Positions 4,362 through 37,169 of a stretch of DNA of 40,027 nt are shown in pieces. The notes under the pieces were generated by a model. That model made no database searches, was not told where the DNA came from, and saw only the letters and a program-made list of their open reading frames with translations. The translations under genes were made by a program, and so were the position numbers. Every line of letters starts with the position of its first letter. The first letter of the stretch is position 1. Source of the stretch: Thiomonas sp. X19. GTDB taxonomy: Bacteria; Pseudomonadota; Gammaproteobacteria; Burkholderiales; Burkholderiaceae_C. Where the stretch lies: assembly GCF_900089495.1 (NCBI RefSeq), contig NZ_LT605203.1, positions 2,886,065 through 2,926,091 on the forward strand. The letters are read 5' to 3'.

Positions 4362-5237
4362 TTAGCCCACAAGACTGATGCCGCTTGCATTCAAACCCTG
4401 CGCCTGCCCCCAGAGATAGCCCTGTCCCCAGTCGATGCCGATGGCGCGTACGCATTCCAGCAGCTCACGGCCTTCGACGCCTTCGGCGATGGTGATCAGT
4501 CCCAGGTCTTGCGCCATGGTCTGCAGACGGCGCAAAACCTGCTCGGCGCGCAGTTCCGCCGACGCCGCCTGCACCAGGGATTTGTCGAACTTGAGATAGC
4601 GGATGGGCAAGCTCAGCAAGTAGGGAAAGGCGCTGTGCTTGCTGCCGAAATCGTCCAGCGCGAGCTCGAAACCCAAGTCCAGCAAAGGGGCCAGCGTGGA
4701 CAGCAAATGCTGCGGGTCGGCGTCGAGGTTGCGCTCGGTGATTTCCAGGATCCAGGGCGCTCCGGCCTGGGCCGCGCCCGGCCACGCATCGAGCCAGTCC
4801 TGATGCCGCTTGGCCAGCATCTCCACGTACAGCGGCTGCGCCAGAAAGGCGCTGCAACAGTTCATGAAGAGCTTGCCATGCGTCGCCGCGAACGGCCCGG
4901 GCCGGGCAGCGGCCGACATCACCTGGGCGGTGATGTCGGCGTCGATGCGCGGCTCCAGGCCAATGCTGGCCGCGGCGTCGATGAAACTCTCCGCGACCAG
5001 CGTCGCCCCCTGCGGCGTCAGCATGCGCGCCAGCGCCTCATGCCCCACCACCTGCAGATCGTCCAGGCGCAGGATGGGCTGATAGGCCACCCGCATCCGG
5101 CGCTCCTGCAGCGCCCAGCGCACCTGCGCCCGGGGAAAGGCGTCACGCAGATGACCATTTGCGCGATCCTGCAGCCAGAGGTTCGGGGAGCGGCGTGGTT
5201 CCCGGAACAACGGCGACACCAACTCAGGCGCGCCCAT
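4362..5237 (-). CDS. Stand-alone EAL-domain protein (putative c-di-GMP phosphodiesterase)
   Basis: The 291-residue protein is almost entirely an EAL domain (residues about 40-285) with no sensory domain or membrane segment, so it should be cytoplasmic. Conserved landmarks are HEALAR, LFMNCC, LEITER, ALDDFG, LKFDKSLV, IAEGVEG and WGQGYLWG, so the metal- and substrate-binding acidic residues and the catalytic-loop Lys and Glu seem present. One oddity is loop 6, which reads DDFGSKHS where most active enzymes have DDFG(T/A)GYS; activity may be altered. Its stop is 45 bases before the small exported gene's region, and its start is 3 bases from the stop of the lipoprotein gene upstream, so the two may be co-transcribed. 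Family assignment is firm; catalytic activity is inferred. Confidence 0.9.
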   Translation of the reverse strand: MGAPELVSPLFREPRRSPNLWLQDRANGHLRDAFPRAQVRWALQERRMRVAYQPILRLDDLQVVGHEALARMLTPQGATLVAESFIDAAASIGLEPRIDADITAQVMSAAARPGPFAATHGKLFMNCCSAFLAQPLYVEMLAKRHQDWLDAWPGAAQAGAPWILEITERNLDADPQHLLSTLAPLLDLGFELALDDFGSKHSAFPYLLSLPIRYLKFDKSLVQAASAELRAEQVLRRLQTMAQDLGLITIAEGVEGRELLECVRAIGIDWGQGYLWGQAQGLNASGISLVG

Positions 5238-5240
5238 GGC

Positions 5241-6920: not shown

Positions 6921-7058
6921 GGTGGACTCCCAGAGGTGTGTCAAGCGCCCCGCAAGCGCGGGATGAAACTCCATAATAGCTGGGAAAAAATAACATTCAA
7001 TAAAAACTTTGCGCTAAACTCGCATCCGCACCCCGGCCCCTGCCGGATCCGAACGACC

Positions 7059-7964
7059 ATGGGACGCCCACCTCGCCTCTTGCCTGCCGCCAAACCGCCC
7101 GCGCATCCCCTGCCGCCGGCGGACGACGTGCTGCGCGCCCTGGGGCGCATTCTGGGACCCCTGGCGCGGCTGCTCCTGGCGGGTGGCATGGACTACACGC
7201 GGCTGGCGGCCGAGCTCAAACCGCTATTCATCGAACAGGCACGCCAGGAGCTGTTGCGCACCGGGCAGAAGGACACCGACTCGGCCATCAGCCTGCTCAG
7301 CGGCGTGCATCGCAAGGATGTGCGCGAGTGGCGCCAGAACGGCTTGAGCGGGCGCATCGCGCAGGAGCTGTCGATCAGCTCGCAGGTATTCGCCCGCTGG
7401 GTGCAAGACCCGCTCTACCGCGACCGCAGGAAGCGGCCCAAGCCGCTGCCCCGTCTGGGGGCCGCGCCCTCGTTCGAATCCCTGGCACGCAGCGTCACGC
7501 AGGACGTGCATCCTTATACGGTGCTGACCGAACTGCTGCGGCTTGGGCTGGTGCAGGTGCGGACCCTCAAGGGCGTGGAGATGATCGTGCCGCACCGCGA
7601 TGGCTTCGTGCCGCCGCCGGGCTCGCGCGAACTGCTGGATCTGTTCGGCGCCAACCTGGCCGACCATGCCGCCGCCGCCGTGGGCAACCTGCTCGGCCAG
7701 CCCCCGCGCCTGGAGCAGAGCGTGTTCGCCGACGGCATCAGCGCGGAGTCGGCTGCAGCGCTCGGAGAACTCGCGCGCAAACTCTGGGCCCAGGCCCGAA
7801 GTGAGATGATTGCCGAAGCCACCCGCCGTTTCGAGGCCGACCAGGGTCGCGACGATGCGACCCGCCGCGTGCGTTTTGGCAGCTATTTTTGGGCTGAGGA
7901 CGTACTGCCCGTCTCACCAGCATCCGACGACATGGCCCAGGGAGAACATCGTGACGAAACCTAA
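7059..7964 (+). CDS. DUF6502 family protein
   Basis: The 301-residue protein begins at ATG 7059; the much longer open frame upstream is antisense to the lipoprotein. It looks cytoplasmic and helical. Its N-terminal half (residues about 20-120) reads like a DNA-binding or winged-helix fold: LAAELKPLFIEQA, then SLLSGVHRKDVREW, then LSISSQVFARWVQDPLY. The second half carries HPYTVLTELLRLGLVQV. I recall this family as DUF6502, often encoded directly before a DUF5666 lipoprotein, and that is the arrangement here: its last 14 bases overlap the next gene's GTG start, implying translational coupling. It may be a regulator of the exported partner, but that is inference. Confidence 0.82.
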   Translation: MGRPPRLLPAAKPPAHPLPPADDVLRALGRILGPLARLLLAGGMDYTRLAAELKPLFIEQARQELLRTGQKDTDSAISLLSGVHRKDVREWRQNGLSGRIAQELSISSQVFARWVQDPLYRDRRKRPKPLPRLGAAPSFESLARSVTQDVHPYTVLTELLRLGLVQVRTLKGVEMIVPHRDGFVPPPGSRELLDLFGANLADHAAAAVGNLLGQPPRLEQSVFADGISAESAAALGELARKLWAQARSEMIAEATRRFEADQGRDDATRRVRFGSYFWAEDVLPVSPASDDMAQGEHRDET

Positions 7965-9627
7965 ATCCTTCATGGCCGCGCTGGGCTTGGGCCTGGCTGC
8001 CTTGCTCACCCTGCTGCTGGCTTCCTGCGGCGGCGGCAGTACCGTGGCGTCCAGCGGGGGCGGCGTGGGCACCGGGGGCACGGGCATGTCCTTCGGCACG
8101 GTCACCGGCTTCGGCAGCGTCGTGGTGGATGGCACGCCTTACAACAGCGCCAGTCCGCAATACTTCGCCGGCAACGATCAGGGTGAAGCGACGCTCACCG
8201 CCGCCACGGCCGTGCAGCTTGGCAACCAACTGCGGATCCAGTTGGACGCCCAGGGCACGCCGAGCATGGTGCTGATCGAGCCTGAACTGATGGGGGCGGT
8301 GGCCAATCTCTCGTCCACGGGGTTCTCCGTCAACGGCGTTCCCGTCCAGGTCAATACCAATCCAGCGGCAGGTCCGGTGACCTATTACTCCGGCCTGACG
8401 GATTACGCCGGGCTGAGCCCAGGCATGCAAGTGGAAGTGCATGGCGCTTATGGCGTGAACTCGAACGGCCAGGGCTACATTCAGGCGACGCTGATCGAGC
8501 AGTTGCCCCCCTCCAACCCCGTCACGCGCATCACGGGGGTGATCAGCCATCTGCAAGCCGCCAGCGGCACCTTCCAGATCGGCACCACGACGGTTCAGAT
8601 CGGCGCGGCCACCAGCGTCGTGCCTTCGGGCCTGAGTCTGGCCAACGGGCAACTGGTCAATGTCTGGAGCAATGTGCCTGTGACGGCCAGTGGCATCACG
8701 GCTGGTGTCGTTCGCATTCGCACCCTGCAAGGGGTTTCCGGGCCCGTGCAGGTGGGCGGGCTGGTCTCCATGCTGTCCGGCAGTCGCTTCCAGGTGTCGG
8801 GCGTGACGATCGATGCCAGCGCGCCGGCACTCGCATCCACCGTGCAAGGCCTCACGCTCGGTGAGTATGTGGTGGTGCTGGGCCAGGCCGATGCCAGCAC
8901 CGGCGTGGTGACGGCCAGTTCCATTCGCGCCTATGCAACCCAGCCCGCTCAAGTCGAACTGCGCGGCACCATCACCGGCTATGTGAGCCCGAGCAACTTC
9001 CTCGTGCGCGGAGTGCTGGTGGATGCCTCGGCGCCGGGCGTGACCTTCAACGGCGGCAGCGCCGCGTCGCTGGGCAACGGCGTGTTCGTGGACATCCTCG
9101 GCCATGTCGGCAGCGGCAATGGCAATGTGGTGACGGCCAGCAGCGTCACCGTGCTCCCTCAAGCACCCGATGGCGGCACGGTGGACTATCAGGGCATGGT
9201 CAGCGCCCTCAACACAGCCAACGGCACGTTCACGCTGACGTGGCAGAAAGAAGGGACGACGAGCACCTCGCAGGTCACGCTCGCGCCGAATGTGGTGTTC
9301 AGCAACGGGGCAGCGGCGCAACTGATCAACGGTGCCAACGTCGAGATCGAGGCAACCAACACGAGCAGCGGCTTGACGGCGTACAGCGTGTCGTTCCGGG
9401 GCGTCGGCAGCGGTGATGGTGGTTCCGGTGGTTCCTCATCGACTCTGGAGACCAAGGGTGTGATCTACAACTTGACCTCGACCAGCTTCCAGGTCAACGC
9501 CCTGACCATCCAGATCAATGGCGTCAGTCCCAACAGCGGCACACTGGCCAATGGGGTGACGGTCGAAGTCACGTTCACGCCATCGGGCAGCCAGAATCTG
9601 GCGAAGGAAATCAGCATCGACCGTTGA
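7951..9627 (+). CDS. DUF5666-domain lipoprotein
   Basis: I chose GTG 7951 because GGGAG lies about 8 bases upstream and the resulting N-terminus (MTKPKSFMAALGLG...) has the Lys residues expected of a signal peptide; an ATG at 7972 is the alternative. The lipobox is LASC with Cys26, then a Gly-rich linker. The 558-residue mature region is a chain of about six small beta-barrel repeats with recurring GxxxxxxxxFxVxGxxVxxxxxT patterns (for example TGFSVNGVPVQV, GTFQIGTTTVQIG, SRFQVSGVTIDAS, NFLVRGVLVDAS, TSFQVNALTIQING). This matches repeated DUF5666 domains. The likely location is the outer membrane or periplasm. The biochemical role is unknown. It is coupled to the DUF6502 gene by overlap. Confidence 0.88.
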   Translation: MTKPKSFMAALGLGLAALLTLLLASCGGGSTVASSGGGVGTGGTGMSFGTVTGFGSVVVDGTPYNSASPQYFAGNDQGEATLTAATAVQLGNQLRIQLDAQGTPSMVLIEPELMGAVANLSSTGFSVNGVPVQVNTNPAAGPVTYYSGLTDYAGLSPGMQVEVHGAYGVNSNGQGYIQATLIEQLPPSNPVTRITGVISHLQAASGTFQIGTTTVQIGAATSVVPSGLSLANGQLVNVWSNVPVTASGITAGVVRIRTLQGVSGPVQVGGLVSMLSGSRFQVSGVTIDASAPALASTVQGLTLGEYVVVLGQADASTGVVTASSIRAYATQPAQVELRGTITGYVSPSNFLVRGVLVDASAPGVTFNGGSAASLGNGVFVDILGHVGSGNGNVVTASSVTVLPQAPDGGTVDYQGMVSALNTANGTFTLTWQKEGTTSTSQVTLAPNVVFSNGAAAQLINGANVEIEATNTSSGLTAYSVSFRGVGSGDGGSGGSSSTLETKGVIYNLTSTSFQVNALTIQINGVSPNSGTLANGVTVEVTFTPSGSQNLAKEISIDR

Positions 9628-9774
9628 GCGTGCCTGCAGGTCCGGGGCGGTGGCGGCGCCATACCCCCCATGTGCCCCTTACCTTGGCTTACGTCGGGAC
9701 GCAATTGAATGCACATTCCCACGTACGCTTGCCGCAAAATGCGCAGTTCCCACAACCCAAACCCCGGAAAATCC

Positions 9775-10182
9775 ATGAACAAACTTGCTCTCGCATTCGT
9801 CCTCGCCGGCTTTGCCGCCGCTCCCGCCTTCGCGGCGATGAAGGAAAAACCCGTCAAGGTTGAGCTCGCCGCGCAAAACAGTTCCGGTGAAACCGGCTAC
9901 GCCATGCTCTACCCCCACGGCGCCAAGACCAAGGTCATCGTGCATCTGAAGGGCGCGCCCAAGGGTGTGACCCAGCCCGACCATATCCACAAGGGCACTT
10001 GCGCCAACCTCGACCCCAAGCCCGCCTATGTCCTCAAGCCGGTTGTGGGCGGCAAGTCCGTCACCATGGTGAACGCGTCGCTGTCCGATCTGCTCAAGGA
10101 GCCGATGGCCATCAACGTGCATGCAAGCCCGACCGATCTGAAAAAGTACGTGGCTTGCGGCGACATCACCGCAGCCAAGTAA
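9775..10182 (+). CDS. Small exported CHRD-like protein
   Basis: ATG 9775 opens a clear Sec signal peptide (MNKLALAFVLAGFAAAPAFA). The mature part of about 115 residues has features of CHRD-like or superoxide-dismutase-like beta-sandwich proteins: NSSGETGYAMLYPHGAKTKV, VIVHLKGAPKG, HIHKGTCANLDPKP and INVHASPTDLKKYVACGDI. Two Cys (in GTCAN and VACGD) could form a disulfide and the HIH could bind a metal; both points are inference. The ribosome binding site is weak (GGA only). An in-frame ATG at 9709 would give no signal peptide and is rejected. The gene is followed 8 bases later by a strong hairpin. Function is unknown. Confidence 0.82.
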   Translation: MNKLALAFVLAGFAAAPAFAAMKEKPVKVELAAQNSSGETGYAMLYPHGAKTKVIVHLKGAPKGVTQPDHIHKGTCANLDPKPAYVLKPVVGGKSVTMVNASLSDLLKEPMAINVHASPTDLKKYVACGDITAAK

Positions 10183-26737: not shown

Positions 26738-26876
26738 GCATTCCCCGAAAAATTCACAGTGCTGGGGAAAATACCTCTCCTTAATATTCGGCAGACACAG
26801 AACAATCCTGACAACTTGATGACGAATCAAGCCCTAATGATTGATATTTCGCAATTTTTCAACCTGGGAGAGTGTC

Positions 26877-27179
26877 ATGAATGTTCAGATCGATACCCCG
26901 TTTCTCATCGATGCTGTGGGCATTGCCATCATGATCTATGGCTTCGCCGAAATCGTGATGCTGCGCAGCAAAGTGCCGGGCGGCATGGTGGGCAAGACCT
27001 GGAGGGCGCTCACGATGCTGGTCGGCCTGTTCGCACTCGGTTATCTGACGACACCATTCTTCGGGAGCCTGCCTGCCAACGCCATTCGCATGTTCGTCGC
27101 CATCATCTTTTTGTTCGGCGCGATCTACGTTGCCATCACGGTGCGGCTGCTGTTTCGCATCATCGAGGAACTGGCCTGA
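26877..27179 (+). CDS. Small membrane protein of unknown function
   Basis: ATG 26877 has GGGAG about 8 bases upstream. The 100-residue protein has three predicted membrane helices: DAVGIAIMIYGFAEIVMLR, ALTMLVGLFALGYLTTPFF, and IRMFVAIIFLFGAIYVAITV. I recognise no family motif. It is the first gene of a plus-strand operon with the 163-residue protein (17 bases downstream) and then a decayed GAF/EAL gene. It is divergent from the GGDEF-EAL gene across an AT-rich region that probably holds promoters for both. This context suggests a membrane partner or sensor for c-di-GMP signalling, which is inference. Confidence 0.78.
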   Translation: MNVQIDTPFLIDAVGIAIMIYGFAEIVMLRSKVPGGMVGKTWRALTMLVGLFALGYLTTPFFGSLPANAIRMFVAIIFLFGAIYVAITVRLLFRIIEELA

Positions 27180-27196
27180 GCCTGGGAGATCCCGCC

Positions 27197-27688
27197 ATGA
27201 GACACCCCGTGCAGCCGCATTGGATTTTGGAGAAGACACCGAAAGGCCGTGATGAGGTGGTGTCTCGTGCCCATCATCTACCCCCTCCCATTCGCAGCCT
27301 GCTGATCTTGGCCGATGGCCAGCGTCCAGCCCGCGACCTTTTGTCGGCCAGCACAGATCCGTTGCGCGGCCAAGCCAGTTTGTCGATGCTGTTGGACGAA
27401 GGTTTTCTCCAGTCCGTGGCCCAGCCCGCAGAGCCGCCCTTGGAATGGGCCGACATCCAGGAATCGGACCGCAAGCCGCGACTCATGGCACTGGTTCGGC
27501 AAATGTTCGGCGCTCAGGCCAAACTGCTGCAGAAATTCGAGCTCGCTCAGGACGATCCAGCGTCCCTGAAAGCCGCGATCGATGCGTCCTGCAAGTTCGT
27601 CCGCCTTTTCATCGATGGTCCGCAGGCTGATGTCTTCCAGCGACGCGCCTACGCCTTGCTGGACGAGCATCGAACCAGGGTGAACTGA
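27197..27688 (+). CDS. Unknown cytoplasmic protein of a c-di-GMP-linked operon
   Basis: ATG 27197 has GGGAG about 9 bases upstream. The 163-residue protein has no membrane segment. Its N-terminal half (about residues 20-75: HLPPPIRSLLILADGQRPAR, then SMLLDEGFLQ) looks like a winged-helix-type fold often found in one-domain regulators of Burkholderiales. The C-terminal half is helical (LMALVRQMFGAQAKLLQKFE, then KFVRLFIDGPQADVFQRRAY). Similar two-part proteins are seen next to c-di-GMP enzymes, but I cannot name a family with certainty. The following relic gene starts 2 bases after its stop. Confidence 0.72.
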   Translation: MRHPVQPHWILEKTPKGRDEVVSRAHHLPPPIRSLLILADGQRPARDLLSASTDPLRGQASLSMLLDEGFLQSVAQPAEPPLEWADIQESDRKPRLMALVRQMFGAQAKLLQKFELAQDDPASLKAAIDASCKFVRLFIDGPQADVFQRRAYALLDEHRTRVN

Positions 27689-27690
27689 GC

Positions 27691-28046
27691 ATGGCGATTT
27701 CTTGTTGTCGGGAGGTCGCCCCGACCACGGTAGCGAGTCATGTGCCGCCCCCAGAGCATGCTCAAGCCCACGAAGCGTGCGCGCTCCAAAAGCCGACATT
27801 GCCCACGCCGCAGGTCTTTGCAGATTGACAAGAACGCGAGGCCTTGCTGCAAGTCCTGGTGAAGTTCTCGACGCACCTGGAGCAGACCAACGATCCTTGC
27901 GCCGTCTTGCAGCGGCTTTGCAATGATCTCGTCGGCGCCTGTCCGCCTAGGGCATCGAATCCCGGCAAACCCGCGATCTCATGCGTGATATTGGGGTGGA
28001 TTGGGGGCAAGTCTATTGGTGGAGACAGTCGACCTTGGCCTCTTGA
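27691..28046 (+). pseudogene. Relic of a GAF...EAL c-di-GMP signalling gene
   Basis: The ATG at 27691 sits 2 bases after the previous stop. The frame reads ...KPTLPTPQVFAD, then an in-frame TGA (27826-27828), then QEREALLQVLVKFSTHLEQT followed by NDPCAVLQRLCNDLVGA, which looks like the beginning of a GAF sensor region. The middle of the gene is gone. In another frame (27951-28046) lies a clear EAL-domain tail, GIESRQTRDLMRDIGVDWGQ followed by VYWW and ending STLAS-stop, resembling the intact EAL protein at 4362-5237 (GIDWGQGYLWG). An internal deletion plus a nonsense codon is the simplest reading. The remaining bases 28047-28164 hold nothing I recognise. Confidence 0.65.
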
Positions 28047-28164
28047 TCGAGGTCAAGGCGGCATTGAACCCGTCCACCACGGCGGTGGTCGGGGCGTCAT
28101 GGGCAGAAGATGAAGCAAAAGGACGGGGCGATACACCAGGCAGGCGCCCTCAAAGTCCCGAACA

Positions 28165-28308
28165 TCACGCATCGGATTTCCGCGCTGGCTTTGGCGGCTT
28201 GCTACTGCGCCGCAGTGCCTGGCGCAGCGTCAGCAAGCCGACCGCGGCGAGCACCAAGCCAGCGTAAACGGCGAGCAAGCCATCGACATGCGCGTCGATC
28301 CAGTTCAT
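28165..28308 (-). CDS. 47-residue single-helix membrane protein downstream of pspA
   Basis: This gene is too short for usual gene finders. It starts 12 bases after the PspA stop codon. The product reads MNWIDAHVDGLLAVYAGLVL, then AAVGLLTLRQALRRSSKPPK, then PARKSDA. It has one predicted membrane helix (residues about 9-28) and a strongly basic C-terminal tail, so the tail should face the cytoplasm. Only a weak ribosome binding site is visible, so translation may depend on the upstream gene. Small single-helix partners of PspA (PspB/PspD-like) are known in enterobacteria; I see no sequence likeness to them, and a similar role is inference. Confidence 0.6.
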   Translation of the reverse strand: MNWIDAHVDGLLAVYAGLVLAAVGLLTLRQALRRSSKPPKPARKSDA

Positions 28309-28320
28309 GGCGGACGCCGC

Positions 28321-29025
28321 TTATTTCGGCGCCGTCATCTCGGCCTTGAGCCTTGCCAGGTCGGCGTCCACGCCGGTGGTGCTGCGCAGCTTGTCGAGTT
28401 CCTTTTCGGTGCTGTCGCGCGCGTCCAGCGGATCGCTCAGAATGCCGACCTCGGTCATGCCTTCCATCGCCTCGGCCTTGGCTTGCATTTGGGCCGTTTT
28501 GTCCTGCGCGCGGCGCATGGCGTCGCCCGCATCGGCCAGGCCCGTGCCCAGGCCGGAGAGCGATTCCGACACGCCAACTTCGGCGGCAGCGGCGGTCATC
28601 TGGGTTTTCATCACCTCTTTCTGGGTACGGAATTGCTCGATGCGATCCTGCAATCGGGTCTCGTAAGCGGTGAGTTTTTCCGCCTGCGTCGCAATGCCGT
28701 CGTGTGCCTGTTGCAGCGCGTCGATTTTCTGCAGCGCGGACTGTTTTTCAGCCAGCGCGGCACGGGCCAGGTCTTCGCGCTGGGCCTGCAGCGCCATGCG
28801 GGCGTCGGTCTCGGCCTTGTCGCTGTCGCGCTTGGCCGCGGCCATCTGGTTTTCCAGCGAGATGCGCTCGGTGATCACGTCGGCCAAGTGGCGCTTGGTG
28901 TCCTGCAACGTGGTGATCATTTTTTCGTAAGACAGGTCCAGGGTCTGCGCCGGATCGTCGGCGCGGTTGAGAAAGGTGTTGACCCTGGCTTCCAGAATTT
29001 CGGCGGCGTGTTTGAACATGGACAT
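28321..29025 (-). CDS. PspA/IM30 family membrane-maintenance protein
   Basis: The 234-residue protein is a typical PspA/Vipp1/IM30 ESCRT-III-like protein, nearly all coiled coil. It starts MSMFKHAAEILEARVNTFLN, then DPAQTLDLSYEKMITTLQDT, HLADVITERISLENQ and a long charged helix region to about residue 165. A Gly-rich hinge (VGVSESLSGLGTGLADAGDA) and a last helix follow. AGGAG lies about 8 bases upstream of the ATG. These proteins bind stressed membrane from the cytosolic side and form rods or rings. It closely resembles the PspA paralogue (YjfJ type) found in gene sets apart from the classical psp operon. Here it is encoded with two YbjQ-type proteins. Confidence 0.93.
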   Translation of the reverse strand: MSMFKHAAEILEARVNTFLNRADDPAQTLDLSYEKMITTLQDTKRHLADVITERISLENQMAAAKRDSDKAETDARMALQAQREDLARAALAEKQSALQKIDALQQAHDGIATQAEKLTAYETRLQDRIEQFRTQKEVMKTQMTAAAAEVGVSESLSGLGTGLADAGDAMRRAQDKTAQMQAKAEAMEGMTEVGILSDPLDARDSTEKELDKLRSTTGVDADLARLKAEMTAPK

Positions 29026-29055
29026 GGTGATTTCTCCTGAGCGGTTGAGCGGGCT

Positions 29056-29901
29056 TCAGTCATTGACTGGAATGACGAGTTGGGGATTGAGCGCATCCAC
29101 CATGGCGTCGGCCTTGGCCATCGCCTTCACCGCCGTGCCGATGGCAAAGAACTCGATGACATGCGGCTGCCAGTTGTGCGAGCCTTCGTGCAACTGCACC
29201 CCGGTGACGCCATCGGCCTGCGCCGCCGCAGCCTCGTGCTGCATGCGCTCCATCGCCAGTTCGCGGGCGTCGTACATGGCCTGGGTGAACTGCCCCAGCT
29301 CGACGTTGTTGCCGATATTGCCGAGCGAGCGCAGCGCGCCCTGGTGGGCGACGTGATAGACGCAGGAGCCCATCACCATTTCCATCGGCCGGTAGCCGGA
29401 CTTGAGCAGCATCCAGAAGTCCTGGCCCGACAGGTCGGAGGTGAAAGGTTTGCCACCCACGCCCTTGAAGCCGGGATCGCCGGTGCGGTGCGCAATGGCC
29501 GTGCCGATGGCCATGAACTCCAGAATGTCCTTGTCCCACTCCATACGCTTGACCTCCAGCCGCAGGCCGACCACGCCGTCGGCCCGCAGCAGGATGGCCT
29601 CTTGCTCCATGCGGCTCATGGCCAGTTCGCGCGCCTGGTACATGGCTTGCGACAGCACGTCCATTTCCATGTTCGTCGACCATTGGCCGTACTGGATGCC
29701 GAGGTGGTAGACGCAGGAACCGACCACCAGGCCGAGCGGCTCGAAGCCGGCCTGGCGCACCATGACGAATTCATTCACCGACAGGTCGGAGGTGAAGATG
29801 CCTTCGTGGCTTCCCTGGGAGCGCAAGCCTTTGAGGCGCTCGACGGCATGCGGGGCGAGTTGCTCGGCGGCTTGTTCTACGGGTTCGGTCATATCGGTCA
29901 T
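29056..29901 (-). CDS. Double-YbjQ-domain (DUF74-like) protein B
   Basis: The 281-residue protein contains two tandem repeats of about 105 residues. Each has FTSDLS...F near its start, then GSCVYH (LVVGSCVYHLG near 85; MVMGSCVYHVA near 190), then QAMYxARELAMxRMxxEA, ADGVxGxxL, and EFxAIGTA. This pattern matches the YbjQ family (COG0393, 'putative heavy-metal-binding', homopentamers in known structures). The conserved Cys and His in each GSCVYH are candidate ligands; metal binding has not been shown. The start ATG 29901 has AGGA 9-12 bases upstream; longer in-frame readings are antisense or shadow. It precedes pspA by 30 bases and follows a related protein by 65 bases. Confidence 0.88.
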   Translation of the reverse strand: MTDMTEPVEQAAEQLAPHAVERLKGLRSQGSHEGIFTSDLSVNEFVMVRQAGFEPLGLVVGSCVYHLGIQYGQWSTNMEMDVLSQAMYQARELAMSRMEQEAILLRADGVVGLRLEVKRMEWDKDILEFMAIGTAIAHRTGDPGFKGVGGKPFTSDLSGQDFWMLLKSGYRPMEMVMGSCVYHVAHQGALRSLGNIGNNVELGQFTQAMYDARELAMERMQHEAAAAQADGVTGVQLHEGSHNWQPHVIEFFAIGTAVKAMAKADAMVDALNPQLVIPVND

Positions 29902-29966
29902 GATGGGTCGTCCTGGTGGAATGGAGGCTATGAAGGCTGGGGTCGAGGTTGTGGTCAAGGCTGGAT

Positions 29967-30989
29967 TCAAGGTTGAGCCGGTGGGGCTTCGAGTTGGCGG
30001 TCGGCCAGACTGAACGTCGGCGTCAGGCTGGCCTTGGGCGGGCGGTCGCGGTCGTAAGCCACGGCCGTGCCGATGGCGATGTGGCGGCAGAGGTAGCGCG
30101 GCGGCTCCTCGTTGCCGCCCTCTTCGCGGAACAACTCGGAATACTGCGTGTGCGCCAGCACCGAGGCCTGCAGGCGCTGGCCGTCGCTGCGCAAATGCTC
30201 CAGCGCGCTGCGCCGCACATGCTGCTGAAAGGCCGAGAGGTCGGTGAGTTCCGCATTCATCCAGGGATTGCCGACGCCACCGTTGCCATAACCGCTGCCA
30301 TAGCCAGGCCCGGGCCTCAAACCCTGTTGGCCATAAGGGGCAAAGCTTGCATAGGACTGCGCCCCGGCGATGTACCAATCGAAGTGGGCGCCGATGGCGA
30401 TGCCCACCGGCACCGCGCCATCGTCCAGCAGGCGCACGAAATGCAGCGCCGACACCGTGGCCAGCGCCGGCTCGATCGACGGCGGCAGGCCGCGGACGCG
30501 CACCGCGGTGCCGCTCAGGGCATAGTCCATGTCGGTCGGGTTCTGCCCGCGCTGCCCGTGGAGCTGCACGTCCACCACGGCATTCGCGCCCAGGAGCGTG
30601 GCTTCCAGGCGCAGGCGGTCGATGGCCTGGTGCCAGCCGTCGACCTGCCCGTCGGACCAGGAGTAGCCGAAGTGGTACCAGCAATTGCCCGTGACCGTGC
30701 CCACGGGCTCGATGCCGTGGCTGCGTTGCGCCAGCATCTCGGCCGGGGTCGCGGTGCTGATCCAGGGCAGCTCGCGCCGCGCCGTGGCGCCCAACCTCGC
30801 CTTGACGAAGGCGGGCAGGTCGGCATGCGGCAGGGCGTCGGCCCAGGCTTGTTGCCGCGCCACTTCGTCGGGCGTGAGGCCGCGCGGCGCAACCAGGCCG
30901 TGGGCGGTGGCGGTCAGCCCGTCCACCGCATGCCGCGCGTCCTGCGCCACGTCCTCGACGCGTTTCTTGAGTTGATCCCAGATCGACAT
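29967..30989 (-). CDS. Double-YbjQ-domain-like protein A (diverged, 340 residues)
   Basis: The protein begins with an amphipathic helix (MSIWDQLKKRVEDVAQDARH) and a helical segment (LTPDEVARQQAWADALPHAD), then two YbjQ-like repeats. The first keeps GNCWYHFGYSW (cf. GSCVYH of protein B), a long helix with RLRLEATLLGANAVVDVQLH and SGTAVRV. The second keeps VRLLDDGAVPVGIAIGAHFD but has lost the Cys, and has AIGTAVAYDRD near the end. Between them is a Gly/Tyr-rich loop (PGPGYGSGYGNGGVGNP). AGGAGA is about 7 bases upstream of the ATG. The helix at the N-terminus could touch membrane. It sits 24 bases after the 139-residue unknown gene. Confidence 0.8.
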   Translation of the reverse strand: MSIWDQLKKRVEDVAQDARHAVDGLTATAHGLVAPRGLTPDEVARQQAWADALPHADLPAFVKARLGATARRELPWISTATPAEMLAQRSHGIEPVGTVTGNCWYHFGYSWSDGQVDGWHQAIDRLRLEATLLGANAVVDVQLHGQRGQNPTDMDYALSGTAVRVRGLPPSIEPALATVSALHFVRLLDDGAVPVGIAIGAHFDWYIAGAQSYASFAPYGQQGLRPGPGYGSGYGNGGVGNPWMNAELTDLSAFQQHVRRSALEHLRSDGQRLQASVLAHTQYSELFREEGGNEEPPRYLCRHIAIGTAVAYDRDRPPKASLTPTFSLADRQLEAPPAQP

Positions 30990-31013
30990 GCGGCTCTCCT
31001 GTGGTGTGCGGGT

Positions 31014-31433
31014 TCAGTTCATCAAAAAATCGTGCAGCGACTGGCTGGCGCGCTGCAACTCGCCGGACTGCGAGAACAAGGCGGCAAGCAGGTTTTCCAT
31101 CCATGCCGCCAGACTCAGCTCCTCGCGCTTGAGGATGACGCCGCCCACCACCCTGGCACGCTGCGTGCGCACGCCTGAGGGCTGTTTGTCGAGCAGGTAA
31201 TGGAAATCCTCGGTCCGCACCACGATGCTCTGCACATGGCTGGCCTTGGCGAACAGGCCGTCGCGCTTGCGCACGACGTCCACCTGCCCCGGAAGGTCGC
31301 CCTCCAGGCGCGCGGCCAGGCCTTCGACGAAGGCCTGGATGTCGGCCGTGGAACGACGGATCCAGGCGGTTTGCAGATCGATCTTGCTGGCGTCGTTCGC
31401 CCCGGGGTCATTGGGATTTGCGGTGTCGGTCAT
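31014..31433 (-). CDS. Unknown protein of the YbjQ-PspA operon
   Basis: The 139-residue protein has an acidic, disordered start (MTDTANPNDPGANDASKIDL). The rest is a mixed fold with TADIQAFVEGLAARLEGDLP, GQVDVVRKRDGLFAKASHVQ, VVRTEDFHYLLDK, VVGGVILKREELSLAAWMEN and LLAALFSQSGELQRAS. It has no signal peptide or membrane helix and I know no family for it. No good ribosome binding site is visible. It lies 72 bases after the ligase-acyltransferase gene and 24 bases before the YbjQ-like protein A, all on one strand. Its position at the head of the YbjQ-PspA set suggests it belongs to the same complex or pathway, which is inference. Confidence 0.72.
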   Translation of the reverse strand: MTDTANPNDPGANDASKIDLQTAWIRRSTADIQAFVEGLAARLEGDLPGQVDVVRKRDGLFAKASHVQSIVVRTEDFHYLLDKQPSGVRTQRARVVGGVILKREELSLAAWMENLLAALFSQSGELQRASQSLHDFLMN

Positions 31434-31505
31434 GGACTGGTGCGGCGGTTGAGCTTGCGCTGGAGAGGGATTCGTTGGGTGAGGCAGCAGCGGCGGCGAG
31501 AGCCA

Positions 31506-34361
31506 TCACGGGGTTGCGCCGACGGCAGCGCCCTCCCCCTTCTCGCCCAGGCGCTGCGACATCGCCGCACGCGCCGCGTCGCGCAGCGCCACGGCGGCGG
31601 CGAAGGGTTCGGCCGGCGCTTGGGCGGCGCGAATCGGCGCGTCGAAGTCGAGTTGGACGGGGTGGTGATGCGGCAGGCGCTCGCCATCGCCCAATACCTC
31701 GCGGGTACCCTGCAGGGTGGCGGGAACCACGGCGATGCGCGCCTGCACCGCGGTCTCAAAGGGACCGAGGTGAAAGCCCAGCAGGCCCGGCTCGGGCCGG
31801 AACGTACCTTCCGGAAACACGCAGAGCGACACGCCCCGCGTTGCCAGCTCGGTCAGGCGGCGGGCATCGGCCACGCTGCGTTGCGCGTCGAAGCGCTCGA
31901 CGAACACCGTGCCGAGCCTCCGCAGAAAAATGCGCACCGCCGGATGGCGCAGCAGTTCGCGCTTGGCGACGAAGCGGTGCGGCGCCGGCAGCGCCGCCAG
32001 CAGCATCAGCGCGTCGAGGTCGCTGGCATGGTTGGCGACGACGAGATGCGTTTGCAGCGGCACGGCCTCCAGCCCGCGCACGCGCAGCTTCAACCCGGTG
32101 CCGCGCAGCAGCAGGCGTGCCGCAACCCGCGCCCGCGCCCAGGCGCGCGCCGGGTCCGGCGCCAGCGCCACGGCCAGCCAGGCTGGTGGCGCCAGCAGCG
32201 CGAACACCAGCCAGAACCAGGCGGCGTAAGCCATGTGGCCAGCCTGCGCGGTGGCTTGGCGGCCGCGCAGCGCCGCGGCGTTCCAGCCCAGGCTGGCGAA
32301 CTGCCGCCACACCGGGCGCGAATGGGCGCCGATGCCGCCACGCTCGAACACCTCGCGCGTGGCGGCGCGGCGCAGCTTGCCGCTGGAGGTTTTGCGCACC
32401 GTATGCGGCGGCGCCAGCACCACGGTGTCGGCCGGTTCGCCGAGCACGTCGACGACGCGCTGCTGCACCGCTTCGCGCAGCCGCGCGCGTGCCTGCGGAC
32501 CGCTTTCGCGGGTTTCGGCCAGCAGCACCAGGCGCTCGGTGCCGCTGATGGGGTCGGCGCTGCCGAAGGCCACCACGCAGCCTTTGCGCACGCCCGGAAG
32601 CTCGCCAACGGCCTGCTCGATCTCGTGCGGGTAGAGGTGGCGACCGCCACGGATGATGATGTCTTTCACCCGCCCGGTGATGTAGATCTCACCCTCGGCA
32701 CGGTAAGCGCGGTCGCCGCTGTCGAGCCAGCCGTCGTGCATCAGCTTGCGGGTCTCGTCAGGCCTGCGGTAGTAGCCGGCCGTGGCCGACGGACCCTGGA
32801 ATTCCAGCCGGCCTTCGACGCGCTCGGGCACCTTGACGCCGGCGGCGTCCACCAGGCGCACGCGGTGCCCGGGGAGCGGATGGCCGCAGGCAACGAAGCG
32901 CAATGCATGCGGGTCGTGGTAGACGGCGGGCTGGGCGCGGTGCTCGCGCTCGAACACGGCGCGGTCGATGAAGTCCACCAGCGGCATGTGCTCCGGCTTT
33001 GAGATCAGCAGCGCCACGGTGGACTCGGCCAGGCCGTACACCGGGGTCATGGCCTGCGGCCGCAGGCCATGCGCGGCGAAGCGCTCGGCGAAGCGGGTGA
33101 CGGTTTCCGGGCTCACGGGCTCGGCGCCGTTGGCGGCGACGCGCAGGCTGCTGAGATCGAGCCCGTCGATGTCCTGCGGGCGCACATGGCGCAGGCACAG
33201 TTCGTAGGCGAAATTGGGTGCCGCGGTGTGGGTGCCGTGGTGGCGGTGGATGGCCCACAGCCAGTCCTGCGGGCGCAGCAAAAACGCCAGCGGCGACATC
33301 ACCACCAGGCGGTTGCCGGTGTACAGGCTGCACAGCCAGGCGCCGATCAGACCCATGTCGTGGTACAGCGGCAGCCAGCTGACGAACACGTCGGCGGCGG
33401 TGAGTTGCAGCACTTCGCCGATGGCGCGGATATTCGCCAGCAGATTGGCATGGGTGAGCGCCACGCCCTTCGGGTCGCCGGTGCTGCCGGAGGTGTACTG
33501 GATGAAGGCGATGTCACCCGCCAGCACCGGCACCGGCTGCCACGCCGGAAGGCTCTGCGTCGCGGGCTGCGGCGTGATGACCTGGCGCAGGCCGGGCACC
33601 AGGGCTTCGAGCAAATGCGCCACGGGCATCGCCTCGGCCACCGTGATCAGCACCTGGGTGCGTGCATTGGCCAGGATGCGGGCATGGCGCCGGACATGGT
33701 CTTCGATTTGCGACAAGCGCGTGGGCGGATAAATCGGCACCGGCACCGCTCCGGCCAGCAGGATGCCGAAGTAGCTGAAAAAGTAATCGGCGCAGGTCGG
33801 CAGCATGATGGCCACGGTCTGCTGCGGCGTCACCCCCAGCTGCTGCAGCCGCGCCGCCACCGTGCGGGCACCGCGCAGCAGCTCGGCATAGGTGAACGGG
33901 GTTTCACCCGTGTCGGACAGCAGCACCAGTTGGATGCGGTCGGGGTGGCGCTGGACATGCCAGTCCAGCATCTCGAGCAGCGTCGTGGCGTGGACCGGGC
34001 GGTCGGCGGGGTCTTGCGTTGCCTCTTGCGTTGCCGAATGGACACGGGCCAGGGGCGCAGCCTGGTTGGGGGCTGACTGCAGGGCGGCCAGCAAATCACG
34101 CGGGGTTTGCGCCTGGGCGAGCAGCGCCTCGGGCAGGCGTCGGCCGAACGCACGCTCGATGCGCATCAGCAACTCCACCCGCGCCAGGCTGTCGAGGCCC
34201 AGGTCGCGGTCGAGCACCGTGTCGAGGTCCACCGCCACCGGTTTGGCCGACTGCCGGTTCAATTCCAGATAGGTTTCGCGCACCAGGCCCAGCAGTCTGG
34301 CTGGCACGTCTCCGCCACCGGCGGTCGACAAGACTCCGGCGGGCGTCAGCGTGTGGTTCAT
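31506..34361 (-). CDS. ACP / fatty-acyl-AMP ligase / PlsC-type acyltransferase fusion
   Basis: The 951-residue chain has three parts. An acyl-carrier domain lies at residues about 20-95 with the phosphopantetheine Ser in DLGLDSLARVEL. A fatty-acyl-AMP ligase follows at about 125-690, with the adenylation motif IQYTSGSTGDPKGVALTHAN, the FAAL-like IYPPTRLSQIEDHVRRHARI, GLAESTV, GWLDSGDRAY and the late Lys region RKTSSGKLRR. A hydrophobic pair of helices leads to a PlsC/LPLAT domain with NHASDLDALML and FPEGTFRPEPG. I chose ATG 34361 because GGGGAG lies 6-11 bases upstream. The architecture suggests activating a fatty acid, loading the carrier, and passing the acyl group to a lysophospholipid or similar acceptor. 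It lies between the sigma/anti-sigma pair and the YbjQ-PspA genes. Confidence 0.9.
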   Translation of the reverse strand: MNHTLTPAGVLSTAGGGDVPARLLGLVRETYLELNRQSAKPVAVDLDTVLDRDLGLDSLARVELLMRIERAFGRRLPEALLAQAQTPRDLLAALQSAPNQAAPLARVHSATQEATQDPADRPVHATTLLEMLDWHVQRHPDRIQLVLLSDTGETPFTYAELLRGARTVAARLQQLGVTPQQTVAIMLPTCADYFFSYFGILLAGAVPVPIYPPTRLSQIEDHVRRHARILANARTQVLITVAEAMPVAHLLEALVPGLRQVITPQPATQSLPAWQPVPVLAGDIAFIQYTSGSTGDPKGVALTHANLLANIRAIGEVLQLTAADVFVSWLPLYHDMGLIGAWLCSLYTGNRLVVMSPLAFLLRPQDWLWAIHRHHGTHTAAPNFAYELCLRHVRPQDIDGLDLSSLRVAANGAEPVSPETVTRFAERFAAHGLRPQAMTPVYGLAESTVALLISKPEHMPLVDFIDRAVFEREHRAQPAVYHDPHALRFVACGHPLPGHRVRLVDAAGVKVPERVEGRLEFQGPSATAGYYRRPDETRKLMHDGWLDSGDRAYRAEGEIYITGRVKDIIIRGGRHLYPHEIEQAVGELPGVRKGCVVAFGSADPISGTERLVLLAETRESGPQARARLREAVQQRVVDVLGEPADTVVLAPPHTVRKTSSGKLRRAATREVFERGGIGAHSRPVWRQFASLGWNAAALRGRQATAQAGHMAYAAWFWLVFALLAPPAWLAVALAPDPARAWARARVAARLLLRGTGLKLRVRGLEAVPLQTHLVVANHASDLDALMLLAALPAPHRFVAKRELLRHPAVRIFLRRLGTVFVERFDAQRSVADARRLTELATRGVSLCVFPEGTFRPEPGLLGFHLGPFETAVQARIAVVPATLQGTREVLGDGERLPHHHPVQLDFDAPIRAAQAPAEPFAAAVALRDAARAAMSQRLGEKGEGAAVGATP

Positions 34362-34414
34362 GGCCATCTCCCCTCGAGTCGCTCCGGCACAGGTGTGCAA
34401 GAACACGAACACGC

Positions 34415-34440
34415 ACCTGCCGATCCCATTTCTGGCAGGT
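34415..34440. repeat. 7-bp inverted repeat in the leader of the ligase-acyltransferase gene
   Basis: ACCTGCC (34415-34421) and GGCAGGT (34434-34440) are exact reverse complements 12 bases apart; a partly overlapping CAGGTG...CACCTG repeat sits just beside it (about 34390-34419). The position, about 55 bases before the start codon and in a 200-base gap, fits an operator, an attenuating hairpin, or chance. Confidence 0.4.
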
Positions 34441-34561
34441 CTATTGAAGTGTGATCAAAACTCGGGGATAAAGTGCGGGATGGTCGAAGACCTTAAGCCT
34501 GGCGCAAGAATGCAGCCCCGCCGGATGGGAACTGTCGGCCCGGTGGGATGAATGCGCCAGT

Positions 34562-35380
34562 TCAGGACATCGGCCGCGCAGCGGGCTGTGCCTGCGGTGC
34601 CCGCGGGGCGTAGCGCTGGTACAGCACTTTGGCGGCCTGCAGCATTTGCGCCCGCGGCAACTCGCCGGTGAGGGCGTAACCCCAGTCGCGGTCCACCCAG
34701 TAGAAGGTGGAGGTGCCGTCGTGGTCGACGATGCGAAAACCGGTTTCGGCCGTGGGCTTGGCCATGGCGCGCAGGAAAACGGTGATGCGCTTGCCCTGCG
34801 CATCCTGGTACATGAGCTGGGCTGCGGGTTTGTCGGGCATGCCGGGCAGCAGGCGCCCGCCCATCAGCACCAGGCCACCGGGCAAGGCGTCGGGCGCGAC
34901 GATGGCGCGATTGAGCCGGCGCGACAGCCAGGTGGTGAGGTCGCTGCCGTTGCGCACTTCCACCGGGCGGCGCGGGTCGGGGGTGTAGACGGCGTAGGCG
35001 AGTTCGGCCTGTCGCACGAAGTGCATGGTGCCTTCGTCCTGCGCCTGCGCCACCACGGCTTGCGGCTGCGGCATGAAGCTGCGCGTGGCCAGGCTGCCGG
35101 CCAGCGCGCCCACGCCCAGCCACAGCGCCACCGAGGCGGCCTGCGCCCAATGCCGCGCCGGCGGCGCCGGGCGCAGCAGCAGACGCGCGGGCACGGGGTC
35201 GTCCAGCAGCGGGTCGAACGCGTCGCGCAAGGCTTGGCGCTGCGCCTGCAGCGCGGCGACCTCGGCAGCGAGCGCAGGGTCTTGCGCGCACCACTGCTCG
35301 ACTTCGGCGCGGTGGGGGGATGCGAGCTGGCCATCGACATAAGCCATGAGGGTGTCGCGGTCGGGGCGCGGTGCGCTCAT
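34562..35380 (-). CDS. Anti-sigma factor (RsiW-like membrane protein)
   Basis: The 272-residue protein starts with a zinc-less anti-sigma-like N-terminal region (RDTLMAYVDGQLASPHRAEV, residues about 8-28, EQWCAQDPALAAEVAAL), followed by one transmembrane helix (ASVALWLGVGALAGSLATRS, about 82-102) and a periplasmic domain of about 165 residues (HFVRQAELAYAVYTPDPRRP and STFYWVDRDWGYALTGEL). Its ATG overlaps the sigma factor's TGA by 4 bases (ATGA), so they are translationally coupled. It would hold the ECF sigma factor at the membrane until a signal releases it. The family match is by architecture and neighbour; the signal is unknown. Confidence 0.87.
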   Translation of the reverse strand: MSAPRPDRDTLMAYVDGQLASPHRAEVEQWCAQDPALAAEVAALQAQRQALRDAFDPLLDDPVPARLLLRPAPPARHWAQAASVALWLGVGALAGSLATRSFMPQPQAVVAQAQDEGTMHFVRQAELAYAVYTPDPRRPVEVRNGSDLTTWLSRRLNRAIVAPDALPGGLVLMGGRLLPGMPDKPAAQLMYQDAQGKRITVFLRAMAKPTAETGFRIVDHDGTSTFYWVDRDWGYALTGELPRAQMLQAAKVLYQRYAPRAPQAQPAARPMS

Positions 35381-35922
35381 CCCAAACTCCTTTGTCCTTC
35401 GATCACGCGCAGCGGTGGCCGCGCGGCGGATGCCTCGCCGTCGGTGAGCGCGCGCAACTGGCTGCGCGCGCGCGACAGGCGCGACATGACGGTGCCGATG
35501 GGGACGCCCAGGGCGCGCGCGGCGTCGGCATAGCTCAAGTCTTCCACCGCGACCAGCAGCAGCGCCTCACGCAGCGGCACCGACAGGTGTTGCAAGGCGG
35601 CAATCATGTCCAGCGCCTGCAGGTGAAGTTCCTGGGTGGCGGCCTGGGCGGGATGCAGGGCCTCGGGCAGATCGTCCAGCGCCTCGGGCGCGCCGACACC
35701 GCCGCGCACCGCGCATTGGTCGATGAACAGGTTGTGCATGATGGAAAACAGCCAGGGCCGCACACTGCCCACCCCGCGCCACAACAGCCACTTGCTGAAG
35801 GCACGCTCCAGCGTGTCCTGCACCAGGTCGTCCGCATCGGCCATGCGGCCGCCATGCAGCACCCTGGCGTAGCGCCGCAGGTGCGGAATCTGCTCGGTCA
35901 GCAGGCGGTGGCGGTCAAGCAT
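35377..35922 (-). CDS. ECF-family RNA polymerase sigma factor
   Basis: The 181-residue protein has the two sigma-70 regions of the ECF group. Region 2 (residues about 8-75) contains IPHLRRYARVLHGG, ADADDLVQDTLERAFSKW and RPWLFSIMHNLFID. Region 4 (about 105-160) contains ALQHLSVPLREALLLVAVED and LSYADAARALGVPIGTVMSR, the helix-turn-helix that binds the -35 element. It is encoded before its anti-sigma factor with a 4-base overlap. The target promoter is unknown, but autoregulation and control of the downstream envelope-type genes is the usual pattern for such pairs. No clear ribosome binding site is seen. Confidence 0.94.
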   Translation of the reverse strand: MLDRHRLLTEQIPHLRRYARVLHGGRMADADDLVQDTLERAFSKWLLWRGVGSVRPWLFSIMHNLFIDQCAVRGGVGAPEALDDLPEALHPAQAATQELHLQALDMIAALQHLSVPLREALLLVAVEDLSYADAARALGVPIGTVMSRLSRARSQLRALTDGEASAARPPLRVIEGQRSLG

Positions 35923-36047
35923 CGGTCATGGGACAAGAAAAAAGCAAAGTATGAGCACCCTACGTTGGACTGCCGCGAGGGTGCCGCCCCCTGGGGTCAG
36001 CACACCTCGGAGCGATCTCTGTGTTCCGCTCCCGAGTTCTCTCTTGA

Positions 36048-36076
36048 CCCCCTCGGGGGGAGTCCGCTGGCGGACT
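36048..36076. repeat. REP-like double hairpin
   Basis: Two small palindromes stand back to back: CCCCC-TC-GGGGG (36048-36059) and AGTCCGC-TG-GCGGACT (36061-36076). They lie directly 3' of the NTF2-like gene, where they could act as its terminator. Similar CCCCCTCGGGGGG elements followed by a GCGGAC hairpin are often repeated between genes in Burkholderiales genomes, as I recall. The rest of 35923-36047 shows a related GC-rich stretch and no gene. Confidence 0.6.
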
Positions 36077-36087
36077 GCTGGGGGCGC

Positions 36088-36552
36088 TCAATACCCAGCA
36101 GGCTTGGCGGCGAGTTTGGGGTCGATTTGCCAGATTTCATCGACCAGCTTGCCATCACGGTAAGTGAGCACATAGCGTACCGGCACCGTGGCCTTGCCCT
36201 TGAACACCACGTCGGCGGTCACCGTGGCGCCCTTGGGATTGGCGGCTTCCTGCAGATGGCCGATATCGGCCTTCAGCGGGCCGTTGGCCTTGGCGAACTT
36301 GGTCCAGGCTTCCTTGATGCCGTCCATCGACGCATAGCGCCCGTCGAGCGGGCCGCCCACCCATTCGAGCAGCGCATTCGGGCCGTAGCCGGCGGTGATG
36401 GCGTCGACATTGCCGGCGGCAATCGCCTCGATGCGGGCTTTGGCGGCCTCGGCCGGGGTTTCGGCCCAGGCCGTGCTGGCGGCGAAAGCCGCGGCGAGCG
36501 CCAAGGCGGCAGCGGCAAGGCGTGGGGTGTGGCGGGCTTGCAGGATGGTCAT
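36088..36552 (-). CDS. Exported NTF2/SnoaL-like protein
   Basis: The 154-residue protein has a signal peptide (MTILQARHTPRLAAAALALA, then FAASTAWA|ET) and an NTF2/SnoaL-type cone fold: EAAKARIEAIAAGNVDAITA, then GYGPNALLEWVGGPLDGRYA, KEAWTKFAKANGPLKADIGH and VTADVVFKGKATVPVRYVLT ending DGKLVDEIWQIDPK. Many such proteins bind small molecules, some are enzymes, and this one has no clear catalytic set. GGAG is 6 bases upstream of the ATG. The C-terminus is about 165 bases from the sigma factor gene on the same strand with REP hairpins between, so co-transcription is uncertain. Confidence 0.85.
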   Translation of the reverse strand: MTILQARHTPRLAAAALALAAAFAASTAWAETPAEAAKARIEAIAAGNVDAITAGYGPNALLEWVGGPLDGRYASMDGIKEAWTKFAKANGPLKADIGHLQEAANPKGATVTADVVFKGKATVPVRYVLTYRDGKLVDEIWQIDPKLAAKPAGY

Positions 36553-36638
36553 CGGTCACTCCATGAGGGTTGGGAATACCTGCATGGACGGCAGGGGCGC
36601 AGGTTTATTCCAGGCCCCTGCCAAAAACACCCAAGCCC

Positions 36639-37169
36639 TCAATCCGCCGGCAAATTCGGGACGTCCAGCACATCGAGAAAACCGAAACGGGTGAAGTCGA
36701 GCATGCGCATGGGGTAGAGCTTGCCGATGAGGTGGTCGCACTCATGCTGCACCACGCGCGCATGAAAACCATGCACCGTGCGGTCGATGGGCTGGCCGTG
36801 CTGATCGAAGCCGGTGTAGCGGATGCTGGCATGGCGCGGCACCACGCCGCGCAGCCCCGGCACCGACAGGCAACCCTCCCAGGCCTCTTCCTGCGCATCC
36901 GACAACGATGTGATCTGCGGATTGCACAGCACCGTGAACGGCACCTCGGGCGCGTCCGGGTAGCGCGCGTTGTGGGTGAAGCCGAAGATCACCACCGCCA
37001 GATCGACCCCGATCTGCGGCGCAGCAAGCCCGGCACCGTCGGCCGCCTTCATGGTGTCGATCAAGTCCACGACCAGCGCGTGCAACTCCGGTGTGTCGAA
37101 CGTCTGCACGGGTGGCGCCACACGCAGCAGGCGGGCATCGCCCATTTTCAGAATGTCTCGAACAGCCAT
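36639..37169 (-). CDS. def: Peptide deformylase
   Basis: The 176-residue metal enzyme removes the formyl group from new proteins. All three signature motifs are visible: [10 protein letters not shown] (residues about 45-54), EGCLSVPGL (with the metal Cys) and QHECDHL, the HExxH metal site. A strong AGGAGG is 7 bases upstream of the ATG. The length and motifs match the type 1/2 enzymes of proteobacteria; some genomes carry two copies, and the usual fmt neighbour is not present here. It therefore may be a second def copy, away from the fmt-def-dprA cluster, but I cannot confirm that from the window. Confidence 0.95.

Follow-up and report, generated by a model that had tools for sequence, protein, structure and literature searches.

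The DNA analysed here is a stretch of 40,027 nucleotides (nt) of Thiomonas sp. X19 (contig NZ_LT605203.1, positions 2,886,065 to 2,926,091), which is called the window, at its full length, in what follows. It carries four minus-strand genes, U139, YbjQ1, YbjQ2 and PspA, which look like an undescribed cell-envelope stress module, by the recurrence of the set with PspA in several bacterial groups. A first-pass annotation had joined nine minus-strand open reading frames (ORFs; 28165-36552) into a single envelope system: an extracytoplasmic function (ECF) sigma factor and its anti-sigma factor, an NTF2-like protein, a ligase-acyltransferase, two double-YbjQ proteins, an unknown protein (U139), PspA and a membrane protein of 47 residues. 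All nine ORFs are found, and eight are backed by families or homologues, the exception being the ORF of 47 amino acids (aa). A system of which no description was found is present, and its most unusual members were rightly picked, but its limits were wrongly drawn: the true unit is the set of four genes, smaller than first proposed. The linkage of U139, YbjQ1, YbjQ2 and PspA stands; that of the nine genes as one unit does not, since the sigma operon occurs separately. The presence of PspA makes a role in membrane stress plausible, as had been suggested.

The linkage of the four genes is accepted because it is repeated in other lineages. A YbjQ1 scan of GTDB genome contigs gave 27 loci (handles beginning with L; genomes are given as G): seven Thiomonas-type loci, 18 loci of the Acidithiobacillus group and two Acidiphilium loci. 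"Thiomonas-type" is a label for the window's genus, after the nearest named relative seen, Thiomonas delicata (L008), whose core proteins are 93-98% identical to those of the window; these loci include three metagenome-assembled genomes (MAGs) labelled just Burkholderiales, Burkholderiaceae or Proteobacteria. The Acidithiobacillus group comprises 14 named Acidithiobacillus, one Igneacidithiobacillus and three MAGs labelled Proteobacteria. The full core set is present in 26 of the 27 loci; the exception, L027, begins within YbjQ1 at a contig end, and the outermost core gene is cut by a contig end in L004 and L022. The usual order, U139-YbjQ1-YbjQ2-PspA, is that of most loci. L020 and L023 have YbjQ1-YbjQ2-PspA-x-U139 instead, and the two Acidiphilium loci have YbjQ2-PspA-U139-YbjQ1, so that the core genes stay linked despite a rearranged order, across distant proteobacterial lineages. 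All 18 Acidithiobacillus-group loci have a 4-nt overlap between YbjQ1 and YbjQ2, and the close spacing of the last six of the nine genes of the window, noticed at first sight, is confirmed (gaps of 72, 24, 65, 30 and 12 nt). In f327, a family of the window's class, the four core genes are together in 16 of 16 loci. The conserved neighbourhood suspected by the first-pass annotation is thus found in both the 27-locus scan and the f327 loci.

Several of these loci have features of their own. The YbjQ1 frame of T. delicata is disrupted near residue 262 in both L008 and G1110, which are probably records of one organism; an open frame from the YbjQ1 start continues into YbjQ2 in L008 (10001-11911), and likewise in G1110. 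L023 has a potassium channel gene (Ion_trans_2 and TrkA_N, 1131-2363) upstream of the module and a gene for a 96-aa superinfection-immunity-type membrane protein (5016-5306) between PspA and U139. L020 (A. sulfuriphilus) agrees with L023 in gene order and has a gene that clusters with the L023 channel gene. In the Acidithiobacillus group, an ATP-binding cassette (ABC) half-transporter lies about 97-132 nt upstream of the module in 11 of the 18 loci; the best NCBIfam model for the copy scanned, that of L016, is MsbA-related and below its cut-off.

A scan against Pfam and NCBIfam gave Pfam matches for the SnoaL/NTF2-like protein, the ECF sigma factor, the ligase-acyltransferase (which also has an acyl carrier protein, ACP, domain), both YbjQ proteins and PspA (Table 1), and no family over the cut-off for U139 and the 47-aa ORF. 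The predicted fold of U139 is alpha-alpha-beta5-alpha-alpha, in a model with a mean predicted local distance difference test (pLDDT) of 76. None of 17 U139 members has a Pfam match at E 0.01 to DUF2170 (YjfI, the CesT/Tir-like partner of PspA); the same scan gave two single-member matches to unrelated families.

That two double-YbjQ proteins are present, as first claimed, is confirmed. YbjQ2 has two Pfam stretches, which are already found in the part covered by the scan (29056-29703, the C-terminal 215 residues), and YbjQ1 has one, against two alpha-beta-alpha-beta-beta units in its predicted model. The predicted folds match those of YbjQ structures and may resemble that of RcsF, an envelope-stress sensor; no export signal is evident by eye in either protein. 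YbjQ1 has an amphipathic N-terminus and a C103-W motif which is conserved in the alignment. YbjQ2 is the most conserved core protein: alignment and motif counts give one G-S-C-x-Y-H motif in each repeat, and both repeats retain cysteines in corresponding positions. The cut-off of PF01906, a family named for putative metal binding only, is also passed by proteins from L033, L092 and L044. Against the single-domain UPF0145 equivalogs (e.g., PRK03732), the YbjQ score is 36.4 bits, below the cut-off of 181. Residues 84-137 of YbjQ2 match a phage family of unassigned function, phrog_15412 (E 3.5e-6), a match from which single YbjQ-like domains may exist in phages. PspA is the sole match in its own 4.67-Mb genome, and the PF04012 cut-off is also passed in L028, L043 and L044.

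Table 1. Coordinates of the nine ORFs and of the promoter-like motif in the window.
Feature	Position	Strand	Evidence
U139, core gene 1, 139 aa	31014..31433	-	homologues adjoin other core genes; no Pfam/NCBIfam match over cut-off
YbjQ1, core gene 2, double-YbjQ, 340 aa	29967..30989	-	PF01906 27.4 bits (cut-off 23)
YbjQ2, core gene 3, double-YbjQ, 281 aa, ATG at 29901	29056..29901	-	PF01906 71.2 bits
PspA, core gene 4, divergent PspA/IM30 (ESCRT-III family)	28321..29025	-	PF04012 92 bits (cut-off 33.9), residues 3-229
ACP + fatty-acyl AMP-ligase + PlsC-type acyltransferase	31506..34412	-	PF00550, PF00501, PF01553
Anti-sigma-like	34562..35380	-	4-nt overlap with sigma; NCBIfam anti-sigma matches weak and sub-cut-off
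ECF sigma factor	35377..35922	-	PF08281, PF04542
SnoaL/NTF2-like, first gene of sigma operon	36088..36552	-	PF12680; precedes sigma in several relatives
Promoter-like motif GGAATAAA-N13-CGTC, upstream of NTF2	36587..36611	-	one zero-mismatch site in window
47-aa ORF downstream of PspA	28165..28308	-	unsupported as gene

The partner of the other three genes is not always PspA. In two genomes of the family f88 (G356 and G1361), which belongs to another class of the phylum, probably the Alphaproteobacteria, a TelA gene directly precedes U139 (PF05816, E 1.1e-16 and 5.5e-18) and is followed by the triad U139-YbjQ1-YbjQ2 in unchanged order. In G356 the TelA and U139 genes overlap by 4 nt if a GTG is taken as the U139 start. 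No PspA is found by profile within these stretches of 16 and 8.6 kb, the parts of the two genomes that were searched. PspA does complete the four-gene set in G698 (L043), a genome of the order to which G356 belongs. On two Streptomyces plasmids, YbjQ1-like, YbjQ2 and U139-like genes are consecutive and no membrane partner is recognised; an Aulosira plasmid carries a broken relative. Because TelA replaces PspA in G356 and G1361 and the plasmid triads have no recognised partner, the deeper core is the triad U139-YbjQ1-YbjQ2, joined by PspA or TelA.

On the Streptomyces plasmids, an annotated hypothetical protein stands ahead of the triad (L033 6248-6922, L034 6336-6974); the L033 protein is without a Pfam match and, by eye, appears to be exported. 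Elsewhere, L037 encodes a 374-aa protein with three YbjQ stretches (6665-7789, minus strand) near a 654-aa SPFH/Band_7 protein (4579-6543, minus strand), a single case in which multi-YbjQ proteins are possibly again associated with a membrane scaffold protein. L045 also encodes a 374-aa protein of similar appearance (8679-9803, minus strand).

In even samples the module is rare. The YbjQ2 profile matched 3/398 in the phylum sample at E 1e-10 (G007, one of the three, is a weak match to a different protein), 2/274 in the class sample at 1e-30, 3/249 in the order of G356 at 1e-30 (one weak) and 3/198 in the family of G356 at 1e-60 (one a lone gene). Similarly, the U139 profile matched 3/398 in the phylum sample at 0.01, one of them marginal, and a single-sequence search with U139 in 250 genomes of the order matched its own genome alone. 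The module is concentrated in f327, with 16 of 18 genomes, against none of 39 in the rest of the order's sample. In the window's genus, YbjQ2 is present in 4 of 25 genomes, and full-length PspA over the Pfam cut-off is found in exactly the same four, a count which leaves out sub-cut-off partial matches in G1104, G1106, G1108, G1114 and G1117. In another family, G012 has PspA without YbjQ2. Some genomes of the genus probably come from the organisms that L003, L004 and L008 also represent, and the counts of the two collections are not additive. YbjQ2 had no match in 50,697 phage records, and no relative was found in a scan of viral contigs that relied on exact peptide patterns. A lone YbjQ2-like gene (L093 of G1233, 9232-10149, minus strand) lies near genes which resemble uppS, recO and a glycyl-tRNA synthetase gene by eye; its motif MGSSIYH resembles the Streptomyces form, and contamination of the assembly is possible.

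The NTF2-sigma-anti-sigma genes form a separate neighbouring operon. The sigma genes had been counted as members of the system; they are placed outside the module because they are present without it, are decayed in one genome with the module and have a motif that is not upstream of the core. Indeed, the anti-sigma gene occurs in 11 of 41 sampled genomes, three with and eight without the module, and the NTF2-sigma-anti-sigma synteny is kept in the module-free genomes L062-L066. In G1100/L003 (L003 2590-2899; L072), the sigma and anti-sigma genes are reduced to fragments, which precede a ligase gene and core that are both intact. Of the 27 scan loci, just L003 and L008 have sigma or anti-sigma matches (E 1e-4); for some of the rest, little upstream sequence is available. 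The motif GGAATAAA-N13-CGTC has one site in the window at zero mismatches, versus none in 100 shuffles; two mismatches give one further site elsewhere in the window, equal to chance. It is also found upstream of NTF2 in L008/L061 and L060; by exact match it is not found in the more distant sigma loci L062-L068, nor, within the window, does it precede the ligase gene or the core. It is possibly the sigma factor's own promoter. A sigma-70-type scan gave no site in 27900-36800. In the intergenic gaps of the nine genes, the minus strand has no listed terminator-like site, so that read-through from upstream is possible.

The ligase-acyltransferase is a lineage-specific, Thiomonas-type addition and is non-core. 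It had been included in the system, and it does stand beside the core, upstream of U139, in 5 of the 6 Thiomonas-type loci with upstream sequence, the window counted; in L007 it is not found within 8.8 kb. It has the motifs GLDSL (phosphopantetheine type), YTSGSTG (adenylation), and NHASDLD and FPEGT (acyltransferase). Within the genus, the genomes with orthologues of at least 91% identity are exactly those four that have the module, and relatives of 48-60% identity bring the matches to 19 of 41 genomes. In L005 and L006 the ORF overlaps U139 by 4 nt, which makes it a likely operon member there. In T. delicata (L008, about 5400-6580), the anti-sigma and ligase genes are separated by a gene which by eye resembles that of a substrate-binding protein. 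The 47-aa ORF, first read as a new membrane protein, is without a tblastn homologue (E 1e-4) in any of the 27 loci; the DNA of the closest relatives aligns in parts, and no such ORF is found there. Downstream of the module, a 309-aa ORF with a GTG start and no Pfam match (26759-27688, plus strand) may be non-genic.

The PspA family polymerises on stressed or leaky inner membrane. We propose, with about even confidence, that the window carries a Psp-type membrane-stress module, U139-YbjQ1-YbjQ2-PspA, in which YbjQ rings serve an exchangeable membrane partner as sensor or adaptor. Gene content, linkage, the exchange of PspA and TelA, the predicted folds and the conserved Cys and His sites are the observed layer. 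By analogy with its family, PspA would act on the stressed inner membrane. The paralogues YbjQ1 and YbjQ2 would form cytoplasmic rings, after the solved YbjQ pentamers, and these rings would be the sensing and adaptor layer. The Cys-x-Tyr-His site of each YbjQ2 repeat and the Cys-Trp site of YbjQ1 may react to a signal in the cytoplasm that the envelope is failing, for which a metal, a proton or a thiol-reactive species are the candidates. U139 would link the rings to the membrane-binding partner, with a presumed contact to PspA, and the YbjQ proteins and U139 would control or assist the assembly of this partner on the membrane. The partner would be exchangeable, PspA in most lineages seen and TelA in another. 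Thiomonas would have gained the ligase-acyltransferase, seemingly able to charge and transfer fatty acids, for lipid remodelling; the order of events given here is a probable reconstruction.

Chalcogen, metal or reactive-sulfur handling is a different reading, in which the Cys and His sites of the YbjQ proteins sequester thiophilic species and PspA or TelA just mend membrane damage. The gene directly ahead of the triad in G356 and G1361 is indeed named for toxic-anion resistance, the cysteines are kept in both YbjQ2 repeats, and the majority of the named hosts oxidise sulfur or iron or are acid-mine bacteria. A part of PMC4092069 describes an archaeal selenium-binding protein as a pentamer with the YbjQ/RcsF fold. 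The metal binding of YbjQ is however putative, by the name of the Pfam family, and no constant oxyanion-gene neighbour was seen in flanks which are annotated in part; we consider this reading rather unlikely. An anti-phage or conflict system, that is, a patchy and at times plasmid-borne cassette in which PspA or TelA guards the membrane, would account for the presence in 4 of 25 genomes of the genus, the triad on two Streptomyces plasmids and the broken relative on the Aulosira plasmid, the superinfection-immunity-type protein of L023 and the match of about 54 residues of YbjQ2 to phrog_15412. However, the module is near-universal in f327, YbjQ2 is unmatched in the phage records and, by exact peptide patterns, in the viral contigs, and PADLOC has no match for the YbjQ proteins or U139 and two weak ones for PspA, which leaves this reading little probability.

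Control by the ECF sigma pair of a nine-gene membrane-repair regulon (NTF2, ligase-acyltransferase, U139, the YbjQ proteins, PspA and the 47-aa protein) would fit the single strand and tight spacing in the window and the possible read-through. The sigma, anti-sigma and ligase genes are moreover adjacent in G1122, and near each other in G1110/L008, where another gene lies between. Against it stand the eight module-free genomes with the anti-sigma gene, the fragments beside the module of G1100/L003, the sigma or anti-sigma matches in just two of the 27 scan loci, some of which have little upstream sequence, and the position of the motif upstream of NTF2 alone; such a regulon is quite improbable. 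Neutral co-localisation of four unrelated genes could appeal to the short intergenic distances that are frequent in compact genomes, but the linkage persists over distant proteobacterial lineages with changed order, and PspA tracks the presence and absence of YbjQ2 in the genus. This explanation is already strongly contradicted and hardly credible.

The Psp-type module would have consequences for both protein families. TelA's mode of action is unsettled, and the module would give a concrete role to YbjQ and TelA, each tied to a membrane-associated partner. Acid-mine and bioleaching organisms make up most of the named hosts, and for these proton and metal leakage through the inner membrane is a main stress. 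Since full-length PspA is found in the window's genus with the module genes alone, the PspA response may depend on them there. The YbjQ/U139 triad itself has a fair chance of being a novel type of device. It is possible, though doubtful, that the paired double-YbjQ proteins, with their putative RcsF-like fold, and the new family U139 represent a class of envelope-stress device in the cytoplasm that had not been recognised before, a ring which responds to thiols or metals and operates interchangeable membrane-associated partners. These would be ESCRT-III-type PspA in Thiomonas, Acidithiobacillus, Acidiphilium and others, TelA in another lineage, and perhaps an unrecognised one on the Streptomyces plasmids. 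If such a class exists, the YbjQ family gains a cellular role, and TelA and PspA share a functional slot.

The module resembles several known systems in part. Like the classical pspFABC system, it has a PspA/IM30 protein expected on the stressed membrane; unlike it, its PspA is divergent (87.2 bits with the pspFABC-type equivalog TIGR02977, below the cut-off of 242.95), and no PspB, PspC or PspF is present among the window genes scanned with Pfam. The fold and Pfam family are common with the single-domain YbjQ/UPF0145 proteins (1y2i, 1vr4, 2gtc), but here there are two domains per chain, tandem paralogues, Cys-Trp or Cys-x-Tyr-His sites and partner genes. Of the Rcs envelope-stress proteins compared, RcsF and the periplasmic domain of IgaA, the sensor RcsF is an outer-membrane lipoprotein, unlike YbjQ1 and YbjQ2 with no export signal seen by eye. 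The likeness to toxic-anion resistance lies in the TelA genes of G356 and G1361; no TelA match was obtained among the window genes scanned, and by eye no Ter genes were recognised among the listed ORFs of the G356 and G1361 loci, part of which were scanned. Solved YbjQ members are described as pentamers in a part of PMC4092069. Sections of Ravi et al. (2024, PMC11237479) describe CesT/Tir-PspA dyads of the YjfI-YjfJ type, in which a small partner gene and PspA are the conserved core, and larger operons which add a potassium channel or a band-7 protein. The module is similar in its small partner and PspA, and in the potassium channel just upstream in L023; it differs in having two double-YbjQ proteins and in the lack of a DUF2170 match for U139. 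In its main text, PMC11237479 uses none of the words YbjQ, TelA and heavy metal. The same sections propose that small CesT/Tir-type partners help PspA to build membrane-linked complexes, and this assembly of PspA by a CesT/Tir partner is the nearest published idea to the mechanism proposed here.

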